DNA of 33,205 bases, from NCBI GenBank assembly GCA_002772535.1, contig PFDP01000005.1, positions 349 through 33,553 on the forward strand, given 5' to 3'. Position numbers and translations under genes: made by a program. The DNA is from Candidatus Peregrinibacteria bacterium CG10_big_fil_rev_8_21_14_0_10_36_19. GTDB lineage: Bacteria > Patescibacteriota > Gracilibacteria > UBA1369 > LOWO2-01-FULL-3. A model generated the notes under the pieces. It worked only from the letters and a program-made list of their open reading frames with translations, did no database searches and was not told the DNA's origin. This document shows positions 8,371-18,824 of the stretch, one piece after another. Positions within the stretch are counted from its first letter, which is position 1; every line of letters begins with the position of its first letter.

Positions 8371-9207
8371 CTATCTTAATACTTCATCCATTGTTTTTCC
8401 TTCACTATTCTTCCAGGTGATCCAGGCGTTAATATTTCTTCCGGCTGCGAATCCGCCGGCATGATTCGGGCTTCTAAATGTCACATTCTCTTTTAAAATA
8501 TATGCTCCATTAATTAAATCTGCAGATTTGCTAAAAATATTATTTCGTTCATCTAGTGAACTTGGAAATGCTTTTGCCCAACTCTGTGCAACTCCAGGAT
8601 CGATTTCAGAACCTGCAAGCATTACAAATTTACCAGCGTCAAAAACTGCTCGTGCTGTTTTGCTTTTTATTTTACATATCCATACGTCCTTTTGACTTAT
8701 TTCTTTTTCATCTAGAACATCAAATATTGGATAGCCTAGGGCTGAACTTAATAGTGATGCATCTTGAAAAAACTCTTCAACACTTGAAATTTTGAATTGA
8801 TGTAAATTATTTTTTGTTGGTACTGTTCGGTTGTGAATTTCACATTTTGACGCCTCTTTTGCTTGTGCAACAGCTATTGCTTCAAGATATCCAACATCGC
8901 TTTTTTCTAAAGAAGAATCTTTTGCTACGAAAACAAGGACAAGATCCCAATAGTCTTTTTCTGTATCTGCTCCATGTGTGGATATTCTTGATAGAAAATT
9001 TTCTGTTTCTCCGATATATGCATGTTCACCATCTTTTGATACCAATATATACAATGCAGGTTTGGTTAATTCCTCAAAATATTTAGCTTCTGCAAGTTTT
9101 TCTCTTGGCAATACATAGCCACGTATAATCCTATTTGATAGTTCGGCTATTTTAATTCCTGTTGGATCGCCAGATGGAAGGTGGATTGTAATTGTTTTTG
9201 GGTTCAT
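8371..9207 (-). CDS. GIY-YIG nuclease domain plus DUF4357 protein
   Basis: The 278-residue protein has an N-terminal GIY-YIG-like nuclease region (about 50-140): ALYILVSKDGEHAYIGETENFLSRISTH, where YIL and YIG are the two signature strands. The C-terminal part (about 195-278) matches DUF4357: AGKFVMLAGSEI, NNIFSKSADLINGAYILKENVTF and NAWITWKNSEGKTMDEVL. This architecture is often found beside restriction-modification and other defence genes, and its role there is not settled. It begins 2 bp after the DUF2779 gene, so it is likely the last gene of the mod-res operon. A TATAAT inside the end of the DUF2779 gene lies exactly 6 nt before the ATG and could also give a separate leaderless transcript. 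Confidence 0.75.
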   Translation of the reverse strand: MNPKTITIHLPSGDPTGIKIAELSNRIIRGYVLPREKLAEAKYFEELTKPALYILVSKDGEHAYIGETENFLSRISTHGADTEKDYWDLVLVFVAKDSSLEKSDVGYLEAIAVAQAKEASKCEIHNRTVPTKNNLHQFKISSVEEFFQDASLLSSALGYPIFDVLDEKEISQKDVWICKIKSKTARAVFDAGKFVMLAGSEIDPGVAQSWAKAFPSSLDERNNIFSKSADLINGAYILKENVTFRSPNHAGGFAAGRNINAWITWKNSEGKTMDEVLR

Positions 9208-9209
9208 AT

Positions 9210-10709
9210 TTATATTATATTTAGTAATTCTTCATAAATTCTGACCATAGCCCAGGTATCTAATTTACAATATTCGAGTAAATCTTTTTTTATTTGTTCT
9301 TTTTCAACTTCATTTAATTCTTCAAAGACCATTTTTTTCCATGAATTCATTGCCATTGATCCATCTCTTATATTTAGCTCTTTGTAACTTAATTTGGGGT
9401 CAAAAATAGGTAATACTTTTTTAATTGAATATTTACCTTCAAAATCTTTATGTGCATATAGATTTTTTTGAAATACTTCCATTAAATCAAATAATCTTTC
9501 ATTAAGTTTTTGCATCTCTTCTGTATATTCGGGAAATACTTCGCCAATATTTTCATTACACTTCTTTTCAAACTTTTTATTCCAAACAATTATGCTGCCT
9601 TCATCTCCAATAGCTTCTTTTAATGATTCAACAAGTGCTTTCATTGGATTTTCGTCTCCTTCTTCGGCTAAAAATTCTAGATGTTCATATTTGCCACCCG
9701 GCTCTCTTTGTATATGTAATGAGTATTGAAAGGGGATTTGCATATATGGCCTACATCCTTCATATATTGGTACTGCTGTTGGGTAGGTTTCATAGTCTAA
9801 ATAGTAAAATGGATATTTTATTTCATCTAAAAATTTCTTGATTTCTTCTGATTTATTAATGGTTATTCCTGTTTGAGTAACATCAACGTGTATTCTTTGC
9901 TTTTTGGATAATTCAAAATCTTCTGGCACATCATAAATGCTTAAATATCCTCCTTCTACCATGCCTTCAAGTCTTCTGGGACTATTACCAATTAGGGTTA
10001 TGTCATGCACTGAATATTCAGGCATATCCGGATACAAATAAGCAAAGGCTGGGCAATGATTTGATCGTGATTTATAAATACAATCGCAAAGTTTAGGTTC
10101 ATTATCTTGATCCATCAATATTCTCATTCCTGTAATATTTTCATTAATTTCAGGTTCTAGCTCATGTACTTTTTCAGTAATGTCTGTTTTTGTGATCAGT
10201 TGCAGTGGGTTTATTTCTCCTTTCTTTACATATTCTTTATTGAGCTCAAGTAAATTTACTTTGCCTACTTTGTAACCTGCTAGATTTAAAACGATATATT
10301 GAAAACCTGCATCATAAATATGTAGTTTTTTGTTTTTACTTTCACCTTCTTTGTCACATGTTGAACCTTTTGCTTCGTTAATAATCCAATATTGATTATT
10401 TTCATCCCATTCCAACATGTCTACCATCACATATAGTCCTTCTGCTTCAAATGTTGCTTGAAAGATAACTCTTTTGCCTTCGTCTATTAGTTTTTTAGTG
10501 TCCGCTACAGCTTGTTCTTGGCCACTTTCGACTAAAACCCCACTAGGGAATAGTTTGCGTCCCCATGCCTCAACTTCTTGCCCGCTTTTAACTAGTTCTA
10601 ACTCAAATTCATTCAGTTCTTTTGTATCAAGAACCTCTGGTTTATTTTTGTGGAACCAGAAGTACTCTGGGCAGGTGAGGAATTTTAGGTAGTCGGATTT
10701 GGTGATCAT
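9210..10709 (-). CDS. DUF2779 protein: Cas4/RecB-like nuclease fused to a DEDDy exonuclease
   Basis: The protein has 499 residues. The N-terminal half has the marks of a Cas4/RecB PD-(D/E)XK nuclease with an iron-sulphur cluster: Cys13 in FLTCPEYFW, Asp97 in VMVDMLEW, Glu112-x-Lys114 in NEAKG, then Cys208, Cys210 and Cys219 in LCDCIYKSRSNHC. The C-terminal half (about 295-495) is an RNase H-fold exonuclease: Asp305-x-Glu307 in YYLDYETYP, Asp408 in LFDLM and YCKLD (Tyr480, Asp484), the DEDDy order. DUF2779 proteins are known but not characterised to my knowledge. It lies 44 bp after res and 2 bp before the GIY-YIG gene, so three nuclease genes share this operon. It may process DNA ends made by the restriction enzyme or act alone. 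Confidence 0.75.
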   Translation of the reverse strand: MITKSDYLKFLTCPEYFWFHKNKPEVLDTKELNEFELELVKSGQEVEAWGRKLFPSGVLVESGQEQAVADTKKLIDEGKRVIFQATFEAEGLYVMVDMLEWDENNQYWIINEAKGSTCDKEGESKNKKLHIYDAGFQYIVLNLAGYKVGKVNLLELNKEYVKKGEINPLQLITKTDITEKVHELEPEINENITGMRILMDQDNEPKLCDCIYKSRSNHCPAFAYLYPDMPEYSVHDITLIGNSPRRLEGMVEGGYLSIYDVPEDFELSKKQRIHVDVTQTGITINKSEEIKKFLDEIKYPFYYLDYETYPTAVPIYEGCRPYMQIPFQYSLHIQREPGGKYEHLEFLAEEGDENPMKALVESLKEAIGDEGSIIVWNKKFEKKCNENIGEVFPEYTEEMQKLNERLFDLMEVFQKNLYAHKDFEGKYSIKKVLPIFDPKLSYKELNIRDGSMAMNSWKKMVFEELNEVEKEQIKKDLLEYCKLDTWAMVRIYEELLNII

Positions 10710-10753
10710 GGGGTTTGAGTTTGTTTAGAGTTAAATGTATTTTTTAAAATTCC

Positions 10754-13624
10754 TTATTTGTATATTTCCTGTATTAAATTAGCGATTCTCTTATTGCTAA
10801 ATTGCGTTTCAAATCTTATTTCTACTGCATCGCCAAAAAACTGCTCAGCATGTCTAATTTTTTGTTCTTCTTCCGTTCTTAAACTTTCTTCATCAGTATT
10901 TTTTGTTTCAACAATGAAATACAATTTTTTCTTTCCATCTTCAAAATTTAAAACATAGGCAAAATCTGGAGAATAACTTTTTCCTCCTGCAACTGGTATT
11001 TTGATAGAATTTTTGGGGATTTTAGAAAAAACAAGAACTTCGGAAATGTTTGTCTTAATATTATTTTTCTCTAATTCGCTGTCATAAAAAAGCTCATCAA
11101 AAAGATAATTGTTTGCTACTTTCTCATCAGAATATAACACACCAATATCAGAAGCACTGATTTCATTTAATACTTCACCTTTAGAACTAGTAAGTTTTGT
11201 GGGATGAAGTGTGTTTGTAACTTTTTGATATCCAATACCAAAGACATCAATAGCATTATACAAAAGATACATATCAAATTTTTGTTTCAAAGTTCTGATT
11301 GTTGAAACATTGAGATAATCATTGATATTTATTTCTGTATCAATAAATGCACTGTGAAGTGTTTTGATATTTATATTAAGGTTTTGAGATAGTTGTTTGA
11401 TAAAATCATCATACTGCATCGTTGATATTTTTGTGATTTCATTTTCTTGTATTGATATTTCTTCAAAAACTACCGCTTGCCCATTTGCTATATCAATTCT
11501 TGTCTGCCTATTTACCAAACCATCTTGAGTGAGTGATGGTGTATATTTTTGCAAAAAATCTACAAAAAGTTTTTGAAATTTTTCTTCATTTTCAATCTTG
11601 TATTCCAAAACTACTTTTTGATTGAGCTTTTCCCAAAGGTCTTTGAGTTCACTATATTTTTCTGTTCTTATTCTGATTTTCTTTTTCTCGTCAGTTGCTT
11701 TTCTTACTTTATTTGATCCAACACCTTCAAAAATAAGAGGATAATTTGATTTTATATACTCAAAACCGCCATCCAAAAATTTGTGAGAAGCTTTGATTAC
11801 TTTGTTTTCTACTAAATCATCAATAAGATCATCTTCATTGTCAATTTTTGGATATTTTTCAAGTATTTGCTTGATCATCTGTTCTGATATTTTTTCTGGA
11901 ATATCTTCAAAAGAAATTGCACCTGACTTTTCATTGATTTCATTGACAAGCTGTTCTACAAAATTACTTTCTGAAAAATCGACAAAATAATTGAGATAAA
12001 ATTGCTCATCTTTGACACGATTGCCGTATTCATTGACTGGTAAACGAAGTCCACGACCGACTTCTTGGAGTTTTGAAATTTCACTACCGCTACTTCTCAA
12101 CTTGCAAATTTGGAAAACATTAGGATTATCCCAACCCTCACGAAGAGTCCATTTAGAAAAGATAAATCTTCTTGGATTATCAAGGGAAAGCATCGCTTGT
12201 TTGTCGTGCAAAATTTCAACTACTTCTTGCTCTATAGCTTCGTCTTTTTCGCTATTGTCTTTGCTAAAATATCCTCCATGGGTTTTGCTAATATCTACTA
12301 GTGCTTTCTCTAAATAGCCTTTGTAAAAAGTATCTGTTTCGGTTTTTAATAATTTTACTACCTCTGCCTTGATGCATTGTTCTACTGTTTTTTTCAAATA
12401 CCCATCGGCATTTCTATACTCTTCAATATTGTCGATAAAAAATAAAGTCAGTGGTTTTATTTTTACTTCTCTTTTTAGGAATTGTTTTTCTAGTTCAAAA
12501 TGCTTGGCGATAGCTTTGGCAATCATTGTTTCTTGTAAGGTTTCCGCATAGCTGTATGGGTTTATTTTGTCGCCCTTTTTTAGTTCTAGGCCATTTGATA
12601 GCACTACCGCACTTTTATTTAGATTTTCAATAATCAGATCATTCATAGCACTATGCACTTTTTCCAAACTTTCTTTTTTAGCGAGTTTTACGGTGTGTTT
12701 TTTCTCGTTTTCCGTGAGTTCAAAAGTTGCTTCTGTTCCGTCAGAATCAATAAATTTCACCATTGTATTTTGACCAGTCGCAAACTTTGTAATATGACCG
12801 ATTACCCCTTTGACAAGGTTTTTATTAAACGAATCAACAGCCGTGAGTGTATAAATCAAATTTTCATATTCTGGAAAAGTCGCACCATAACGAATAATAT
12901 ATTGTGGTTTCATTTTTTGGATATTTTCCCAAGTTTTGTTCCCTTGTGTAAACTTGTGAGGTTCATCAATAATCACAAACGGACAAGTTGCGGAAATTGC
13001 ATCAAATGGTACGGAATATTTATCAAAAAGACTGGCATCAAAACTTTTTTGCATGGTTTCAGAATTGATCATACCAGCATTAATAATCAGTACTTGAATA
13101 TGATTCTTTTCAAATGTTCCAGCATTTACAAAACTATTTACCGCAGGAGGAAGATATGATTTCTTGTTTTTCCCGCCTTTTTGACTTTCTACAATGTGGA
13201 GATTGAGAGTTTTTCCGTATTGTTCTTTGAAATGTTCACGAGAGCTATCAGACTTGAGAAAGTCTATTGTTCCAGCTTTGATAGAAAGTGTCGGCACGAC
13301 AATCACAAACTTAAAAATTCCATACAGTTTATTGATTTCAAAAATTGTTTTAGTGTAGGTATAGGTTTTTCCTGTCCCTGTTTCCATCATAATATCAATG
13401 ATATTGCTATCATGTTTGATTCTTCCATCTATTACTCCGTATTCAGTACGAGTAAGACGGATATTTCTGGCATAATCTGTCCCTGCTTTATCTATCAGAG
13501 GATTGACAAACTGTCTGTCAGCTTCTTTTGGTTTTACAATTTCCAGACTATCAAAAACAGCTACCGTAGCGGATACGGCTTTGCTTTGATGATCGAGGTT
13601 TTTTTCAAAATTAAATCCTGCCAT
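10754..13624 (-). CDS. res: Type III restriction enzyme, Res (helicase-nuclease) subunit
   Basis: The 956-residue subunit pairs with Mod to cut DNA with unmethylated sites in an ATP-dependent way. It has an SF2 helicase core: Walker A METGTGKT (80-87), VVPTLS, Walker B VIIDEPHKF (near 220), RYGATFPE, and the motif VI-like region EVGRGLRLPVNEYGNR. The C-terminal nuclease reads YSPDFAYVLNF...LYFIVETKN, the D-(x)n-ExK of type III enzymes. Length and domain order are complete, with no frameshift. It starts 2 bp after mod. The subunit probably works as Mod2Res1-2 and moves or switches along DNA between sites. Confidence 0.95.
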   Translation of the reverse strand: MAGFNFEKNLDHQSKAVSATVAVFDSLEIVKPKEADRQFVNPLIDKAGTDYARNIRLTRTEYGVIDGRIKHDSNIIDIMMETGTGKTYTYTKTIFEINKLYGIFKFVIVVPTLSIKAGTIDFLKSDSSREHFKEQYGKTLNLHIVESQKGGKNKKSYLPPAVNSFVNAGTFEKNHIQVLIINAGMINSETMQKSFDASLFDKYSVPFDAISATCPFVIIDEPHKFTQGNKTWENIQKMKPQYIIRYGATFPEYENLIYTLTAVDSFNKNLVKGVIGHITKFATGQNTMVKFIDSDGTEATFELTENEKKHTVKLAKKESLEKVHSAMNDLIIENLNKSAVVLSNGLELKKGDKINPYSYAETLQETMIAKAIAKHFELEKQFLKREVKIKPLTLFFIDNIEEYRNADGYLKKTVEQCIKAEVVKLLKTETDTFYKGYLEKALVDISKTHGGYFSKDNSEKDEAIEQEVVEILHDKQAMLSLDNPRRFIFSKWTLREGWDNPNVFQICKLRSSGSEISKLQEVGRGLRLPVNEYGNRVKDEQFYLNYFVDFSESNFVEQLVNEINEKSGAISFEDIPEKISEQMIKQILEKYPKIDNEDDLIDDLVENKVIKASHKFLDGGFEYIKSNYPLIFEGVGSNKVRKATDEKKKIRIRTEKYSELKDLWEKLNQKVVLEYKIENEEKFQKLFVDFLQKYTPSLTQDGLVNRQTRIDIANGQAVVFEEISIQENEITKISTMQYDDFIKQLSQNLNINIKTLHSAFIDTEININDYLNVSTIRTLKQKFDMYLLYNAIDVFGIGYQKVTNTLHPTKLTSSKGEVLNEISASDIGVLYSDEKVANNYLFDELFYDSELEKNNIKTNISEVLVFSKIPKNSIKIPVAGGKSYSPDFAYVLNFEDGKKKLYFIVETKNTDEESLRTEEEQKIRHAEQFFGDAVEIRFETQFSNKRIANLIQEIYK

Positions 13625-13626
13625 AT

Positions 13627-15513
13627 TTAATACCTAGTTATAAAATCAATATCCAGTTTCTTCTTGTTTGCATAGTTTGAGACATTTTCCGCTATTTCTC
13701 TCAAAACTTTACTTCTAAAATGATAGCCAAAAACAATAATACTGATTGGATTGAAAGTTGTGTCTTCATCAATCTTGTTGAGGAGTGCTTTTAAGTTTTT
13801 TGTTTCAAATCCTTTATTCATTAAATACAATCTGCCATTGCCATAGTATCCAGTATAACCCTCCAAATCTACATTTTTTAAACTTTCGGTAAGGGATATA
13901 TTGTCGTACGTTTTCCAAGTGGTAAGAAGTGTTTGCAAATCTTCACTTGATAATTTGCTTTCATCAAAAAGTTTTGTTTGTGCATCAAATTCTTTGGCTT
14001 CAAATTCATAATCTTCCCAAATTGGTTGAGTTTCAAAAATCTTGAATCCACTTTTGTCATCTATTTTCTTTCCTGCTCTCACCAGTCTTTCTTTGGTAAT
14101 TTCAAAAATAGTCGGTTCATCAACTCCAAGTTCATTTTTCACAAAATCGTATGCTGTCTTGTTTTTCTTTGGATCTATCAATTCTGGAAGTTGTACAAGA
14201 ATATATTTTCTATTTCCTTCTTTTCCATTTGCTCTATCTTCTGCATTGAGCTGCATCACTGCATCGCCAGTCGTTCCACTGCCTGCGAAAAAGTCGAGGA
14301 TGAGGTCGTTGGAAGTAGTTGCTAAACTAATGATTTTTTTAATTAATTTAGAAGGTTTAGCGGTATCAAATAAGTTAATATCTTGAAAAAAATCTAAAAT
14401 CTCTTTTTTACCTTCTTTATTTGTTGCTACATTGTCCCAATAATTTGAAATGGTTTGACCAGAGCTTTCATGTAAATAAATAATTTTCTGTGGTATTGCA
14501 TTTCCATCTACTCCAAAGTAAATTAAGCCTTTTTCTAAAAGTTCTTTATACCCATATTCTGGATAAGCCCATAATTTGTCATGAATTTTTCCGGTAGGAG
14601 TTTTGATAGAATAGTTATAGCCTCCACCTGACAACCCTTTAGAAACAGTAATTGGAACAGGTCTCCATTTGCCTTTTGTATATATTTTATTCGGTTCATT
14701 ATAGCTTTTTTTAATGTATTCATCCGACAATAATTCATTATTGATTTCTGCTTTTAGCGTTTTAGAAAAACACAAAACATATTCTCCTTGAATTGCAATT
14801 TTTTTTGAATCGCTTGAGATTTCTTTTTTTCTTTTCCAAAGTATTTGCCCCACAAAATTCTCCTCCCCAAAAATCTCATCCATCAAAATGCGGAGCTGGG
14901 CGACTTCATTGTCATCAATACTCACAAAAATCACGCCATCGTCTTTGAGGAGTTGTTTGGCGATATACAGTCTCGGATACATAAAAGTTAGCCACGCACT
15001 ATGTGAATTGCTTTTGCTGTTTACAAAACTTAAAATCTTTTTGGCTTGTTCTTCGTCTACTCCTGCAAGTTCGGAGAATTGCTCTACGGTAAACTTGCGG
15101 TCATCTTCATAGACAAACCCATCACTTCCTGTGTTGTAAGGTGGATCAATATAAATCATCTTCACTTTTTCGTGATAGGCATTGGAGAGATGTTTTAATA
15201 CTTCCAGATTATCGCCTTTGATCAGCAAGTTTTCAGAATTTTTGTTTTCTTGCTTTTCGTTCCAATCTATATCTTCTTTGATAAGAGTTTTGGCAGGATC
15301 AGTTGCAAGCAGTCTTGCATAGCTTTTTCCTAGCCAGTCCATGCCATAACTTTCTTTGGAGAAATTGATTTCGCTTGTTGTAAGTTCTTTTTTAAACTTT
15401 TCAAAATCAAAATCACCACTTTTATCGAAACAGTGCGGAAAATTCTTTTTTACTATTTCCAAGTCGTTATTTGGAGCAATTATATTTTGAGTAGTGTTTT
15501 GATTATCTGCCAT
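13627..15513 (-). CDS. mod: Type III DNA adenine methyltransferase, Mod subunit
   Basis: The 628-residue subunit methylates adenine N6 and also supplies site recognition for Res. It is a beta-class enzyme: the catalytic DPPYNTGSD (123-131) comes before the SAM motif LDFFAGSGTTGDA (407-418). The region between them (about 225-370) is the target-recognition domain, which I cannot translate into a DNA site. The start ATG is preceded by AAGGA with a 7-nt spacer, the only convincing Shine-Dalgarno sequence in the window, which fits a gene brought in from elsewhere. I saw no long homopolymer or tandem repeat of the kind that makes phase-variable mod genes. A TATACT at about 15549-15554 on the minus strand may be its -10 box. 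Confidence 0.95.
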   Translation of the reverse strand: MADNQNTTQNIIAPNNDLEIVKKNFPHCFDKSGDFDFEKFKKELTTSEINFSKESYGMDWLGKSYARLLATDPAKTLIKEDIDWNEKQENKNSENLLIKGDNLEVLKHLSNAYHEKVKMIYIDPPYNTGSDGFVYEDDRKFTVEQFSELAGVDEEQAKKILSFVNSKSNSHSAWLTFMYPRLYIAKQLLKDDGVIFVSIDDNEVAQLRILMDEIFGEENFVGQILWKRKKEISSDSKKIAIQGEYVLCFSKTLKAEINNELLSDEYIKKSYNEPNKIYTKGKWRPVPITVSKGLSGGGYNYSIKTPTGKIHDKLWAYPEYGYKELLEKGLIYFGVDGNAIPQKIIYLHESSGQTISNYWDNVATNKEGKKEILDFFQDINLFDTAKPSKLIKKIISLATTSNDLILDFFAGSGTTGDAVMQLNAEDRANGKEGNRKYILVQLPELIDPKKNKTAYDFVKNELGVDEPTIFEITKERLVRAGKKIDDKSGFKIFETQPIWEDYEFEAKEFDAQTKLFDESKLSSEDLQTLLTTWKTYDNISLTESLKNVDLEGYTGYYGNGRLYLMNKGFETKNLKALLNKIDEDTTFNPISIIVFGYHFRSKVLREIAENVSNYANKKKLDIDFITRY

Positions 15514-15708
15514 AGATTATTCCTTATAAGTAAAAGTTATTTCTAGTATATAAGTTTTCTTGTTCTTTTTACATCTATAAATCGTTTTCAGAGCGATAGT
15601 GGAGAAAACAACCTTATACCCCCTCTTTAAAATATAAAAAAATCAAATTCCTTATTTCTTAAAGCCCATCAAAAACTTTTTATTAAACAAATTTTTCAAA
15701 AATATGTC

Positions 15709-15820
15709 GCTTAACGTCTAGGTATAAGCGATGTTTGCGGGTGATATAATAGCCGACAGTCTGATATGGGTGAAGTAAAGGAGTGAAGTGACTGAACGGA
15801 ACCTCTTATACCTTGTTAGC
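15709..15820 (-). repeat. attC-like long imperfect hairpin
   Basis: On the minus strand the order is GCTAAC (15820-15815), AAGGTATAAG, a folded centre, CTTATACC (15728-15721), and GTTAAGC (15715-15709). GGTATAAG and CTTATACC are perfect 8-bp arms; a second stem inside is CCG/CGG plus CAGTC/GACTG (15753-15761 with 15790-15799). GTTAAGC fits the attC R' box (GTTRRRY); the outer GCTAAC fits the R'' box less well. At about 112 bp the element has the size and two-stem layout of long integron attC sites. It lies right after the OLD-like ATPase gene in the orientation a cassette attC should have. No integrase is in the window, and only one copy is seen. Confidence 0.5.
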
Positions 15821-15896
15821 TGATGTATTCCTTTTATTTTCCGACGATAGTTGGTTGTTTTAAAAATTTTCAAATTTCTTTTTCCGTTTTGGGTGG

Positions 15897-15929
15897 TGGG
15901 CAGAGGGGGATTAAAGGGGTGAATGCCCA
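15897..15929 (-). terminator. Hairpin after the OLD-like ATPase gene
   Basis: TGGGCA and TGCCCA form a 6-bp stem around a 21-nt loop, starting 6 bp after the stop codon on the minus strand. No run of T follows, so it is a weak terminator candidate or part of the mobile-element end. Confidence 0.25.
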
Positions 15930-15934
15930 AACAC

Positions 15935-17707
15935 CTAAGCTTCTTCTTTTTCTTTATTTTCTTCAATAATTATTTTTTCAATAATCTCTAATATTTCTTG
16001 AAAATTCTTGAAATCTTCTTTTGTTCCATTTGAACAAATCCAATCACAAATGGATTGTTTGTTGCTATCAATTTTAAAATTTTGTTTGTTTCCAGCTTTC
16101 ATCAAATAGCTAAAATGATCTGGGAAGTTTTTATAAACCTTATCAATCAAATCTTTTTCAAACAAATTCTCAATCCCTTTTTGAAGAGGGTTCTCGTTAT
16201 GCTTTGGCATCTTTCTGATATAAAGAATGTTTTTATATTCTTGATCTTGAATAGATTCTTCCGGGTCGTTTAATAGAATTACCTTTTGTTTTAGGAGATT
16301 AAGATTTGTGCTGAGTAATTTTTGAGCATTCCCTAGTGCCTTATTATTTGAATTGTTTGTTCCAAAATTAGTTTCCTCGCCAATAATTTCAATATCGAAA
16401 TTATCGTAAGCTTTACTGTGTAAATCGTATGCTTTTTTTAGGTATTTTACATCTGTTGGACCTTCTACATAAATTATTGGTTTGTTATTACTGATGATTT
16501 TGGCTTTTACATCATCTTCAAATTTTTGTGTTTTTTTCAAAACATTGTAAGCATTTTCAAATTCTGAAAACCTTTCTGTTGTTATTATTTCTCCATTTGG
16601 CATATCTCTAATTTCAAAATTTTCTTCTCCAAAAATTTTCTTCATACCTAACAAAAACAAAGGGGAATGTGTCGTGATAATGAATTGGATCTTTGGAAAA
16701 TCTTTTATCAATTCTGGCAAAACAGTACTTTGCAAATTTGTATGTAAGTGAACATCTATTTCATCAATTACTACAATTCCTTCAATTTGCTCTCTAGTTT
16801 TTGGAGGAGTATCCCCATGTCGAATGATATTTACAAAAAGGTTGAGCAAAAGAGATTCTCCCAATGAAAGATTGTCGATACTCGGCAATAATTGCCTTTT
16901 TATACTTTGGTCGCTATTAACTTCTACAATACTAACTCGATATCCGCCTCTTGGGCCAATTCCGAATATTATATCATTTCTTTGTTTGATTTTTTTGAGA
17001 ATATTGTTGATTAATTGCCAAGTGATTTGATCAACGACATTTGATGGATTGCTTACAAAATCTAAAACCAAATCCATCAAATAGGACTTATTATCTTTTG
17101 TAGCACTTACGATTTCTATATCTTTCTTCAGTTCCCCAGAGAATCTTCTTTTATCCTCAAACCTTTGCTTGTCTGTAAAGGGTTTGTTTTTCCAAAAAGG
17201 CTCTTCATACCTATATGCTGGTTGATAAAAGTGGACTCCGCGTAACCATTCTTCTTGAAAATTTTCCTTATGTGTACCATTAATATTTGTTGATAGTTTT
17301 TGGAAATCTTTTTGTGAGTTTGGTGATAATGAAAAATCTTCAATCAAATCAGTAAAATCTTCTTTTTTTACTTCTCCAACTTTATCGAAGTACTCAATTT
17401 TATTACCTTCATTATCAACAAAGCTCAAAATTGAGAAGCCATTATCTTTTCCACTTTGTACATTTATGCTGCCTGAAATTTTATAAAAGCTTCTTTTTAA
17501 TCCACTTTGAATACCGATGTCATCAAATAAATTACTAGCTAACTCGTAGAAGCTATCAATTATTTGAGATTGCAATATTGTTTTGCCTGAGCCGTTTTCA
17601 CCAACAAAAATTATAGGTTTTGGTTCCCCATTTTCTTTGAAGGGCAAGGAAACACAGAGTGAATCTATTGGCCCGATATTTTTAAATGCAATTTTTTTAA
17701 GATACAT
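15935..17707 (-). CDS. OLD-like AAA/ABC ATPase with a TOPRIM domain (candidate defence nuclease)
   Basis: The protein has 590 residues. The N-terminal half is an SMC/ABC-type ATPase: Walker A GENGSGKT (36-43), signature LSLGES (280-285), Walker B IVVIDEID (Glu316 region) and the switch His347 in ITTHSPLFL. A TOPRIM-like domain follows: IIYVEGPTDVKYL with Glu415 and Asp419, and an acidic ILLNDPEE (Asp481, Glu483) where OLD nucleases carry DxD. The order ATPase then TOPRIM is that of class-OLD proteins such as P2 Old and GajA. The usual helicase partner (UvrD-like GajB) is absent; a HEPN protein lies 65 bp upstream instead. It probably senses something with the ATPase and cuts DNA or RNA; the trigger is unknown. 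The C-terminal tail is very rich in Glu and Lys. Confidence 0.75.
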   Translation of the reverse strand: MYLKKIAFKNIGPIDSLCVSLPFKENGEPKPIIFVGENGSGKTILQSQIIDSFYELASNLFDDIGIQSGLKRSFYKISGSINVQSGKDNGFSILSFVDNEGNKIEYFDKVGEVKKEDFTDLIEDFSLSPNSQKDFQKLSTNINGTHKENFQEEWLRGVHFYQPAYRYEEPFWKNKPFTDKQRFEDKRRFSGELKKDIEIVSATKDNKSYLMDLVLDFVSNPSNVVDQITWQLINNILKKIKQRNDIIFGIGPRGGYRVSIVEVNSDQSIKRQLLPSIDNLSLGESLLLNLFVNIIRHGDTPPKTREQIEGIVVIDEIDVHLHTNLQSTVLPELIKDFPKIQFIITTHSPLFLLGMKKIFGEENFEIRDMPNGEIITTERFSEFENAYNVLKKTQKFEDDVKAKIISNNKPIIYVEGPTDVKYLKKAYDLHSKAYDNFDIEIIGEETNFGTNNSNNKALGNAQKLLSTNLNLLKQKVILLNDPEESIQDQEYKNILYIRKMPKHNENPLQKGIENLFEKDLIDKVYKNFPDHFSYLMKAGNKQNFKIDSNKQSICDWICSNGTKEDFKNFQEILEIIEKIIIEENKEKEEA

Positions 17708-17772: not shown

Positions 17773-18579
17773 TTAGAAAATAGTTTTTACAATTTTTTCT
17801 ACTCCTTCAACCAGTTCTTCAACATCATCTTTTGTTGGCTCTTTCTTTTTTTTATGATCGCATAAATTACGCAAATCTCCTAAATGTTGTATTTTGCGCC
17901 ACGTAGGTGTTTCAAACACACCAGCATCCTTTAACTTATCGTTGTAATCACTAATTGAAGGATTCTTTTTAGCAACTTTCACTGCATGATTATCGCAAAC
18001 CTGTGAAAGATGTTTTTCTAAAACAACGCCAGCAACAGCCCCAGCACCTCGAGAAAAACCTTTTTTGTTTAATTCTTTGGCAGCTTCCAATTCTGAATCA
18101 AATATATCAGCTTGGACAAGTTGTTGGATATCAAAAAGAGAACTTTCAAACCTTTTTTCTATTGACTTGATAATATTGAGTTGTTGCTCAAATTGTGCTG
18201 TTGCTGCTTCTGGCCCTACTTTTCTATCGCCATAACCATTAGTGACAACGAGATTTTGAAGATAGTCCTCAATGACGTAATTCCCATATTCTATAGATTT
18301 TCTACTCTTTGGTTTTTCATACAGTTTTACAAAGTCAGGGATTCTGTCCGGTAATAGTTGTTTTAGTAAGATAAGAGCTTCGGAGTACCAGCTTTGATAA
18401 GAGTTTCTAAAAGTTGGGATTTTTTTGACGAAGTCTGCATATTTTTCTTTTAAACGAGGTTTCAATTGTTTTTCAAATTCTTCAGGATATGACTCGTATT
18501 GCATTGCTGTATGAAGATCTTGTCCGGTGGATATCATTTTTTCTAAATCCTCTTTATATTTTTGTAAATTTGTAATCAT
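17773..18579 (-). CDS. HEPN-type protein, candidate RNase or partner of the OLD-like ATPase
   Basis: The protein has 268 helical residues and no signal peptide. Near the C-terminus it reads GDLRNLCDHKKKKEP: RNLCDH (237-242) is the R-x4-6-H motif of HEPN ribonucleases, set in a helix after AGAVAGVVLEKHLSQVCD, a pattern seen in DUF4145-like and abortive-infection HEPN proteins. The N-terminal 150 residues are not recognised; they may bind the ATPase or the trigger. It is the first gene of the minus-strand island and is followed by the OLD-like gene. Pairs of a HEPN RNase with an ATPase are a common toxin-sensor layout in phage defence. The active-site call rests on one motif. Confidence 0.55.
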   Translation of the reverse strand: MITNLQKYKEDLEKMISTGQDLHTAMQYESYPEEFEKQLKPRLKEKYADFVKKIPTFRNSYQSWYSEALILLKQLLPDRIPDFVKLYEKPKSRKSIEYGNYVIEDYLQNLVVTNGYGDRKVGPEAATAQFEQQLNIIKSIEKRFESSLFDIQQLVQADIFDSELEAAKELNKKGFSRGAGAVAGVVLEKHLSQVCDNHAVKVAKKNPSISDYNDKLKDAGVFETPTWRKIQHLGDLRNLCDHKKKKEPTKDDVEELVEGVEKIVKTIF

Positions 18580-18627
18580 AGAAAAGAATATTTAAAGACA
18601 TTTCACTTAACTAGTATTTATTCGAAC

Positions 18628-18656
18628 ATACTACTTTCCTACCTCCTTTTCAACAA
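18628..18656 (-). promoter_or_regulatory. Possible promoter of the HEPN-OLD operon
   Basis: On the minus strand TTGTTG (18651-18656) and TAGTAT (18628-18633) are 17 bp apart. A GGAGG lies in the spacer, and a 3-codon frame (ATG TTC GAA TAA) follows 12 nt later, so the start region may hold a mini leader. Boxes are weak. Confidence 0.3.
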
Positions 18657-18709
18657 TCTCTATCTGTATTTATTGTACTGGCTTCAATAGGGAAACACTG
18701 AAAAAGCTG

Positions 18710-18742
18710 GAAAAATCTTCCTCCTGGCCGTCGGGATTTTTC
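18710..18742 (-). terminator. Inverted repeat downstream of tRNA-Arg
   Basis: GAAAAATC (18710-18717) and GATTTTTC (18735-18742) are perfect 8-bp inverted repeats, with a CC/GG pair inside. On the minus strand it follows the tRNA and ends in T-rich sequence (GATTTTTCCAGCTTTTTC), so it may end that transcript. Confidence 0.4.
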
Positions 18743-18815
18743 GGCGCTTTTTCTCCTGCGGCTCCGGCTTGCTCGCGAAGCTCGAAAAGCCTGCGCCTCC
18801 GGATCGTGTTTCTCG
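18719..18815. repeat. GC-rich segment with a 13-bp near-perfect direct repeat
   Basis: This stretch is strikingly GC-rich against AT-rich surroundings. CCTGCGGCTCCGG (18755-18767) and CCTGCGCCTCCGG (18790-18802) differ at one base, and the DNA between them (GCTTGCTCGCGAAGCTCG) is itself self-complementary in part. It directly adjoins the tRNA 3' end. It may be an intergenic repeat family or the scar of an integration event. Confidence 0.45.
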
Positions 18816-18824
18816 CTACTACTA

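Follow-up and report, generated by a model that had tools for sequence, protein, structure and literature searches.

At positions 15706-15825 of a 33,205-nucleotide stretch of DNA (hereafter the window), a hairpin element lies close to the end of an ATPase gene in the genome of a Candidatus Peregrinibacteria bacterium. An earlier note had read it as a single attC-like site, which raises the question of what an integron recombination site would be doing in Patescibacteria, a group that was not among the 14 bacterial phyla in which a 2021 review placed integrons (PMC8618304). The source genome (G000) is a draft of 1.07 Mb in 15 contigs, 99% complete, and the window corresponds to C14:349-33553. 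As developed below, the element very probably is the attC ending a two-gene defence cassette (HEPN plus OLD-like ATPase) that belongs to an integron-type capture system widespread in Patescibacteria, with an IntI-related recombinase.

Read on the minus strand from 15823 to 15709, the element runs TCAGCTAAC-A-AGGTATAAGAG ... CGCTTATACCT-AGAC-GTTAAGC. The R'' box TCAGCTAAC (15815-15823) and the L' arm CGCTTATACCT (15720-15730) were assigned from the sequence and geometry of the site family described below. The L'' arm AGGTATAAGAG (15803-15813) pairs with L' at 10 of its 11 positions, and the R' box GTTAAGC occupies 15709-15715, the crossover being placed between G (15715) and T (15714) according to the G/TT signature of the family. 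A single A (15814) separates R'' from L'', and AGAC (15719-15716) separates L' from R'. All the motifs quoted for an attC layout in the earlier note (GCTAAC, the two arms and GTTAAGC on the minus strand) were recovered; in control DNA, pairing of at least 10/11 between L'' and L' at the family geometry was seen for just 0.13% of AAC..GTT pairs. GTTAAGC fits the R box consensus GTTRRRY, the RRRY part of which is broken by many sites of the family (GTTATGT, GTTGTAC), where the box is fixed as GTT and then mostly a purine (GTT[AG]). The inner CCG-CAGTC/GACTG-CGG stem that had also been pointed out does exist in the window copy, but it is not the conserved inner structure of the family. Full copies possess two branched inner hairpins; the window copy has kept its R and L parts (10/11), but its second inner hairpin (hairpin B) no longer has a 5' arm. 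Folded alone as DNA, the element was not striking (z of -1.95 and -1.16), which we attribute to this damage.

A structured RNA or a transcription terminator at the end of an operon would also place a hairpin just 3' of the ATPase gene. Rfam at its gathering thresholds, however, matched only tRNA and gave no match for the element, inspection of the sequence showed no T tract directly 3' of the stem, and copies of the element lie between unrelated genes, in arrays that bear the G/TT signature beside a recombinase gene. We give this explanation almost no chance of being correct.

A DNA search of the source genome revealed related elements on contigs C10 and C15. Five C10 copies and eight copies from a stem scan of related genomes were aligned (A2) and turned into a covariance model, R1, which describes the R and L stems only and from which the window copy was excluded. 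R1 matched the window element with 73.4 bits, the E-value being 1e-15 for a search of 118 kb and 9.5e-15 for the genome as a whole. The source genome contains 14 R1 sites, namely 12 at C10:53.6-66.9 kb, all on the minus strand, one on C15 and that of the window, and sites were present in 68 of the 99 close relatives and, across Patescibacteria, in 62 of 380 genomes. The two findings that the earlier note had asked for in support of attC, a significant covariance-model hit and other copies, were both obtained, with 13 more copies in the source genome and numerous ones in relatives. In the 13 founding copies, the L stem was paired at 96.5%, with compensatory changes in 9 of 11 pairs; in 65 further copies, whose alignment was fitted to the model, it was paired at 94.5% with compensatory changes in all 11 pairs. 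This covariation was reached by none of 500 shuffles, and the pairing between L'' and L' is kept in shape, not in sequence. A REP-type or chance hairpin, a caution raised by the earlier note itself, finds some support in a REP-like repeat that lies nearby, behind a tRNA gene. It is contradicted by an E-value of 1e-15 with an independent model, by strictly directional arrays, by covariation and by the presence of an attI partner, and we regard it as refuted for all practical purposes.

From R'' to R', the family follows the plan CATC-R''(..AAC)-A-L''(11)-GGTTC-hairpin A-CCCATATT-hairpin B-AACATC-L'(11)-GAAC-GTT[AG]... The spacers on the two sides of the L stem differ: a single nucleotide, A at 130 of the 132 sites, faces 4 nt (GAAC, AAAC, GGAC and similar). 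A bulge-free L stem with 10 or 11 of 11 pairs was found in 84 of the 132 sites, and a single bulge improved the pairing in few sites, with similar frequency on the two sides (5', 25; 3', 21). No consistent extrahelical base was detected in the L'' arm across the 132 sites, the L stem being an unbroken 11 bp. Judged by its sequence, the window hairpin is an attC-type site, oriented as for a cassette ending with the ATPase gene.

To which enzyme such sites might belong is indicated by their distribution. Eighty-eight R1 sites were found in 274 kb around the genes of a second tyrosine recombinase of the relatives, about 275 aa long (C9-type, present on C9 in the source genome), whereas the control loci, 132 kb of DNA surrounding canonical Xer genes from the same group, gave none. 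Sites of attC type, always upstream and divergent, were carried by 24 of the 27 recombinase loci for which 1 kb or more of upstream DNA was available; no site was detected at a few loci with upstream DNA (L036, L047). In the relatives, the C9-type gene is frequently found no more than a few hundred bases from where its contig starts, a position to be expected if the repeats of the upstream array interrupt the assembly. The same recombinase was recovered from genomes named Nomura-, Moran-, Uhr-, Peregrini-, Dojka-, Wolfe- and Gracilibacteria and WWE3, in most groups with the same layout. For 32 of 49 arrays, among which a few genomes are represented twice, the attI core predicted from the first attC was found close to the start of the recombinase gene with 6 of 6 positions matching. 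These cores are usually situated 50-350 bp from the start of the recombinase gene, in the stretch between recombinase and attC, and follow a common motif, nAAAnAnTTCGnATAAAAAnGA/GTT, which had not been used in the core search. A position weight matrix built from 29 attI sites identified, in the source genome, a site at C9:369 (score 32), 131 bp from the C9 recombinase. The recombinase and attI of this genome stand at the broken end of C9, the large array is on C10 and the window belongs to a separate contig.

The C10 array (C10:53599-66912; L009, L010) comprises 12 attC sites. Its first cassette carries a CBASS pair, and others encode an SLH-domain protein or small unknown proteins. The array includes a 6.3-kb "cassette" (C10:57987-64266) whose ends match perfectly. 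The CBASS cassette heads the array, and a gene for a LexA-type repressor (C10:69065-69730; L010:9066-9731) is divergent from it; elsewhere, SOS control of integrase genes is frequent.

The cassettes have a median length of 600 bp, and in 71 of 82 the longest ORF is on the sense strand. Cutting between G and TT would require each cassette to begin with a match to the R'' of its own far-end site, whereas no agreement is needed between R' and R'' of one site. Over 71 cassettes, the start matched the R'' of its own terminal site at 4.46 of 5 bases, compared with 2.88±0.11 after shuffling (highest of 5000 shuffles, 3.28), and R' and R'' within one physical site agreed at only 2.81 of 5. We take this match to be the mark of site-specific recombination at G/TT. 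The site family with its covarying fold, the attI sites, the divergent layout and the cassette-end signature can all be read from the sequences.

The C9-type enzyme was compared with known recombinases. By sequence, IntI4 (2A3V) is the solved structure that fits it best, the match being split in two by residues 201-245 of IntI4. An AlphaFold model (pLDDT 90) also gave 2A3V as best match (Z 23.2, 250 residues, 2.7 Å), followed by the archaeal Xer 4a8e (Z 22.0, poor rmsd); 5hxy was also among the next matches. The catalytic RKHRH-Y residues and an IntI-like SPL end are retained. From KG..R to H.LRH, the C9-type enzymes count 64 residues (median), versus 106 in four IntIs and 74-83 in the resident Xers. 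The roughly 42 missing residues include the I2 helix and hold the IntI-specific ALERKYP..W..VF segment; the match to TIGR02249 likewise falls in two pieces around the gap, below the cut-off. In a quick tree with four IntIs only, Xers, IntIs and C9-type enzymes separated, with IntIs and C9-type enzymes on the same side of the Xers and the resident Xer in a clade of its own (support 100, long branch). The C9-type recombinase is related to IntI, as far as sequence and predicted fold tell, but it is not a canonical IntI. The IntI gene that the earlier note had suggested searching for has a counterpart on C9 in the form of a related recombinase, but neither of the two recombinases of the source genome passes the TIGR02249 cut-off. 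The other one, on C8, is the resident Xer.

These observations bear on two further explanations. In one, the sites would be ordinary integrons whose canonical IntI has been lost or left unassembled (a CALIN or single-site remnant), the recombinase without I2 helix being a bystander. In its favour, bacteria and archaea commonly contain CALINs (PMC9668308), and G078, a close relative of the same order, does hold an IntI over the cut-off (G078:C21, L040; 461 bits). This gene is the sole canonical IntI among the close relatives; its contig measures 4.1 kb and may be a contaminant from binning. No IntI over the curated cut-off was found in any of the 380 Patescibacteria genomes, versus sites in 62 of them; attI and array stand directly beside the gene without I2 helix in dozens of genomes, and the family sites are devoid of consistent extrahelical bases. 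We consider this scenario very unlikely. Two enzymes with full-length TIGR02249 matches, those of G048 and G233, were also rejected as IntIs, since their inserts are unlike I2 and the G048 enzyme nests inside the clade without I2 helix. At these loci (L039, G048:C73; L185, G233:C5) the insertion occupies the I2 position with unrelated sequence, and that of G048 has an attC upstream.

In the other explanation, the recombinase would be Xer-like and act on double-stranded sites (dif-like or IMEX-like), the hairpin amounting to two inverted binding sites and the cassettes to double-stranded circles. Speaking for it are the missing I2 helix and extrahelical bases, two absences shared with XerCD and the CTX phage hairpin (PMC4792948), and the best NCBIfam model for the C9-type recombinase, which is XerA-type. 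Yet the L arms vary between sites and keep their pairing, as for recognition of folded DNA, the crossover at R' only together with the cassette-end signature is the integron pattern, and the canonical Xer gene forms a separate clade without such sites. Although less remote than the loss of a canonical IntI, an Xer-like system is in our opinion unlikely.

Outside Patescibacteria, several recombinases of Spirochaetes, Nitrospirae, Bacillota and Aminicenantes (L158, L164, L166, L173, L174, L181) are also without the 42-residue insert. For some recombinases of these phyla, attC-like R1 matches occur downstream on the same strand, a layout resembling the inverted integrons of Treponema (PMC3607928), which we mention as a lead only.

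Within the window, the attI matrix detected one attI-like site, TAGTATGTTCGAATAAATACTA/GTTAAGTGAAATGT (18598-18633, minus strand, core G at 18611), with a score of 20.2. The next best site in the window scored 7.3, and none of 200 Markov sequences reached 20.2 (p about 0.002). The site sits behind a tRNA gene, and the ATG of the first gene of the predicted cassette follows 32 nt past its core. This gene (17773-18579, minus strand) encodes a HEPN-domain protein of 268 aa (HEPN_Apea, E 1.5e-4, just below the Pfam cut-off), and the last one (15935-17707, minus strand) an OLD/PtuA-like AAA ATPase of 590 aa (AAA_21, E 1e-10; PtuA models, up to 99 bits). In a side-by-side comparison, the 3' end of the cassette (15818-15930, minus strand) was near-identical to that of the C10 cassette terminated by the attC at 66904. 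The last 110 bp of the two are nearly equal, the C10 cassette encoding the CBASS pair, whose cyclase scored 638 bits and whose 1TM effector scored 203 bits. The start of the window cassette, GTTAAGTGA, agreed with the R'' of its attC at 3 of 5 bases, no better than chance, and the expected start, GTTAGCTGA, was absent from the window. It must consequently be assumed that one end changed later or that more than one event took place. The phosphatase-tRNA pair is kept in seven genomes of the same family, with different DNA behind the tRNA in each, which designates this place as a lineage-specific insertion point; neither an attI-like site nor an exact empty site was found behind the tRNA in these seven genomes.

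Bounded by an attI-like site and an attC, HEPN-OLD is probably a captured defence cassette. The orientation assumed in the earlier note agrees with this arrangement, the attC-type site following the ATPase gene and the attI-like site lying beyond the HEPN gene. The note had left open whether HEPN-OLD or the neighbouring restriction-modification (R-M) genes came as, or beside, a cassette. The former is favoured by the attI-like site, the attC and the 3' end held in common with the CBASS cassette, whereas for the type III R-M genes a second cassette border was sought beyond them and only chance-level matches were found, which gives no support to reading them as a cassette. Two other features of the surroundings were noted. 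A defence island adjoins the HEPN-OLD cassette at 8371-15513; in it the type III R-M genes (Mod, Res) come before those for a DUF2779 protein and for a GIY-YIG protein that matches PADLOC candidate PDC-S14. A GC-rich palindromic repeat lies behind the tRNA at 18684-18820; its matches of 70-84% are scattered over genomes of the same family, and it is REP-like, not an attC.

In the integron-type system that we favour, a tyrosine recombinase would join cassettes at G/TT by recombining a double-stranded attI next to its own gene with a hairpin attC, the latter being recognised by its shape (the covarying 11-bp L stem), most likely as a folded single strand. The C9-type recombinase would be the catalyst, and the window would represent a stray single cassette in the attI-like site behind the tRNA, probably captured in trans by the same enzyme. 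In known integrons, the I2 helix, the defining trait of their integrases, docks onto an extrahelical base of attC, and its acquisition is held to have turned an Xer-like enzyme into an integron integrase. It has been described as necessary for cassette capture and as present in no other protein (PMC7790495), and as co-evolved with the extrahelical bases (PMC4792948). Since the present system has neither, strand choice and the block to a second strand exchange must rest on something else, for which the conserved asymmetric spacer loop (1 nt against 4 nt, A opposite GAAC-type sequences) is a candidate. We lean towards an integron that works without both, in which an IntI relative devoid of the I2 patch recombines folded attC and has another way of preventing the lethal second strand exchange, in a group without known integrons and in a state that either preceded the acquisition of I2 or followed its joint loss with the extrahelical bases. 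A quick tree with four IntIs is compatible with both an ancestral and a reduced form.

If so, gene capture in Patescibacteria may operate without an integrase part thought to be indispensable. These tiny, mostly symbiotic bacteria would gain a gene-capture device that carries genes for defence (HEPN-OLD, CBASS). Cassette platforms having neither I2 helix nor extrahelical bases become available in a large natural collection. With the enzyme, attI and attC sequences at hand for dozens of genomes, the origin of integrons becomes directly testable. The additional domain is the criterion by which IntegronFinder tells IntI from other integrases (PMC9024848), which suggests that searches demanding it would score such platforms as integrase-less. 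No description of Patescibacterial or I2-less integrons was found in the searchable literature, from which subscription papers and preprints are mostly excluded.

Compared with integrons such as that of Vibrio cholerae IntI4 (2A3V), the Patescibacterial system shares an IntI-related recombinase, an adjacent attI, divergent and mostly single-ORF cassettes, hairpin attC sites with R and L boxes and the G/TT crossover. It differs by an integrase that is short of about 42 residues including I2, by attC sites with an unbroken L stem, no consistent extrahelical base and 1-nt/4-nt spacers, by an R box fixed only as GTT[AG] and by branched inner hairpins. The C10 array and the window site resemble the CALINs and single attC remnants of IntegronFinder in having no integrase on their own contig, but a related recombinase, accompanied by an attI of its own, exists in the same genome at one end of contig C9. 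Archaeal integrons were likewise met in an unexpected, mostly uncultured group, many of them as CALINs, and their IntIs were reported to carry the IntI-specific additional domain (PMC9668308), unlike the Patescibacterial enzymes. Xer recombinases and the elements that exploit them (XerA, XerCD, CTX phage) have a similar fold (4a8e, 5hxy) and no I2 helix; the Patescibacterial enzyme, in contrast, falls in a clade apart from the resident Xer and is accompanied by attC/attI cassette arrays that are absent around the latter. Taken together, an integron layout and junction signature combined with neither I2 nor extrahelical bases place this system outside the strict definition of an integron, as a new variant of it.
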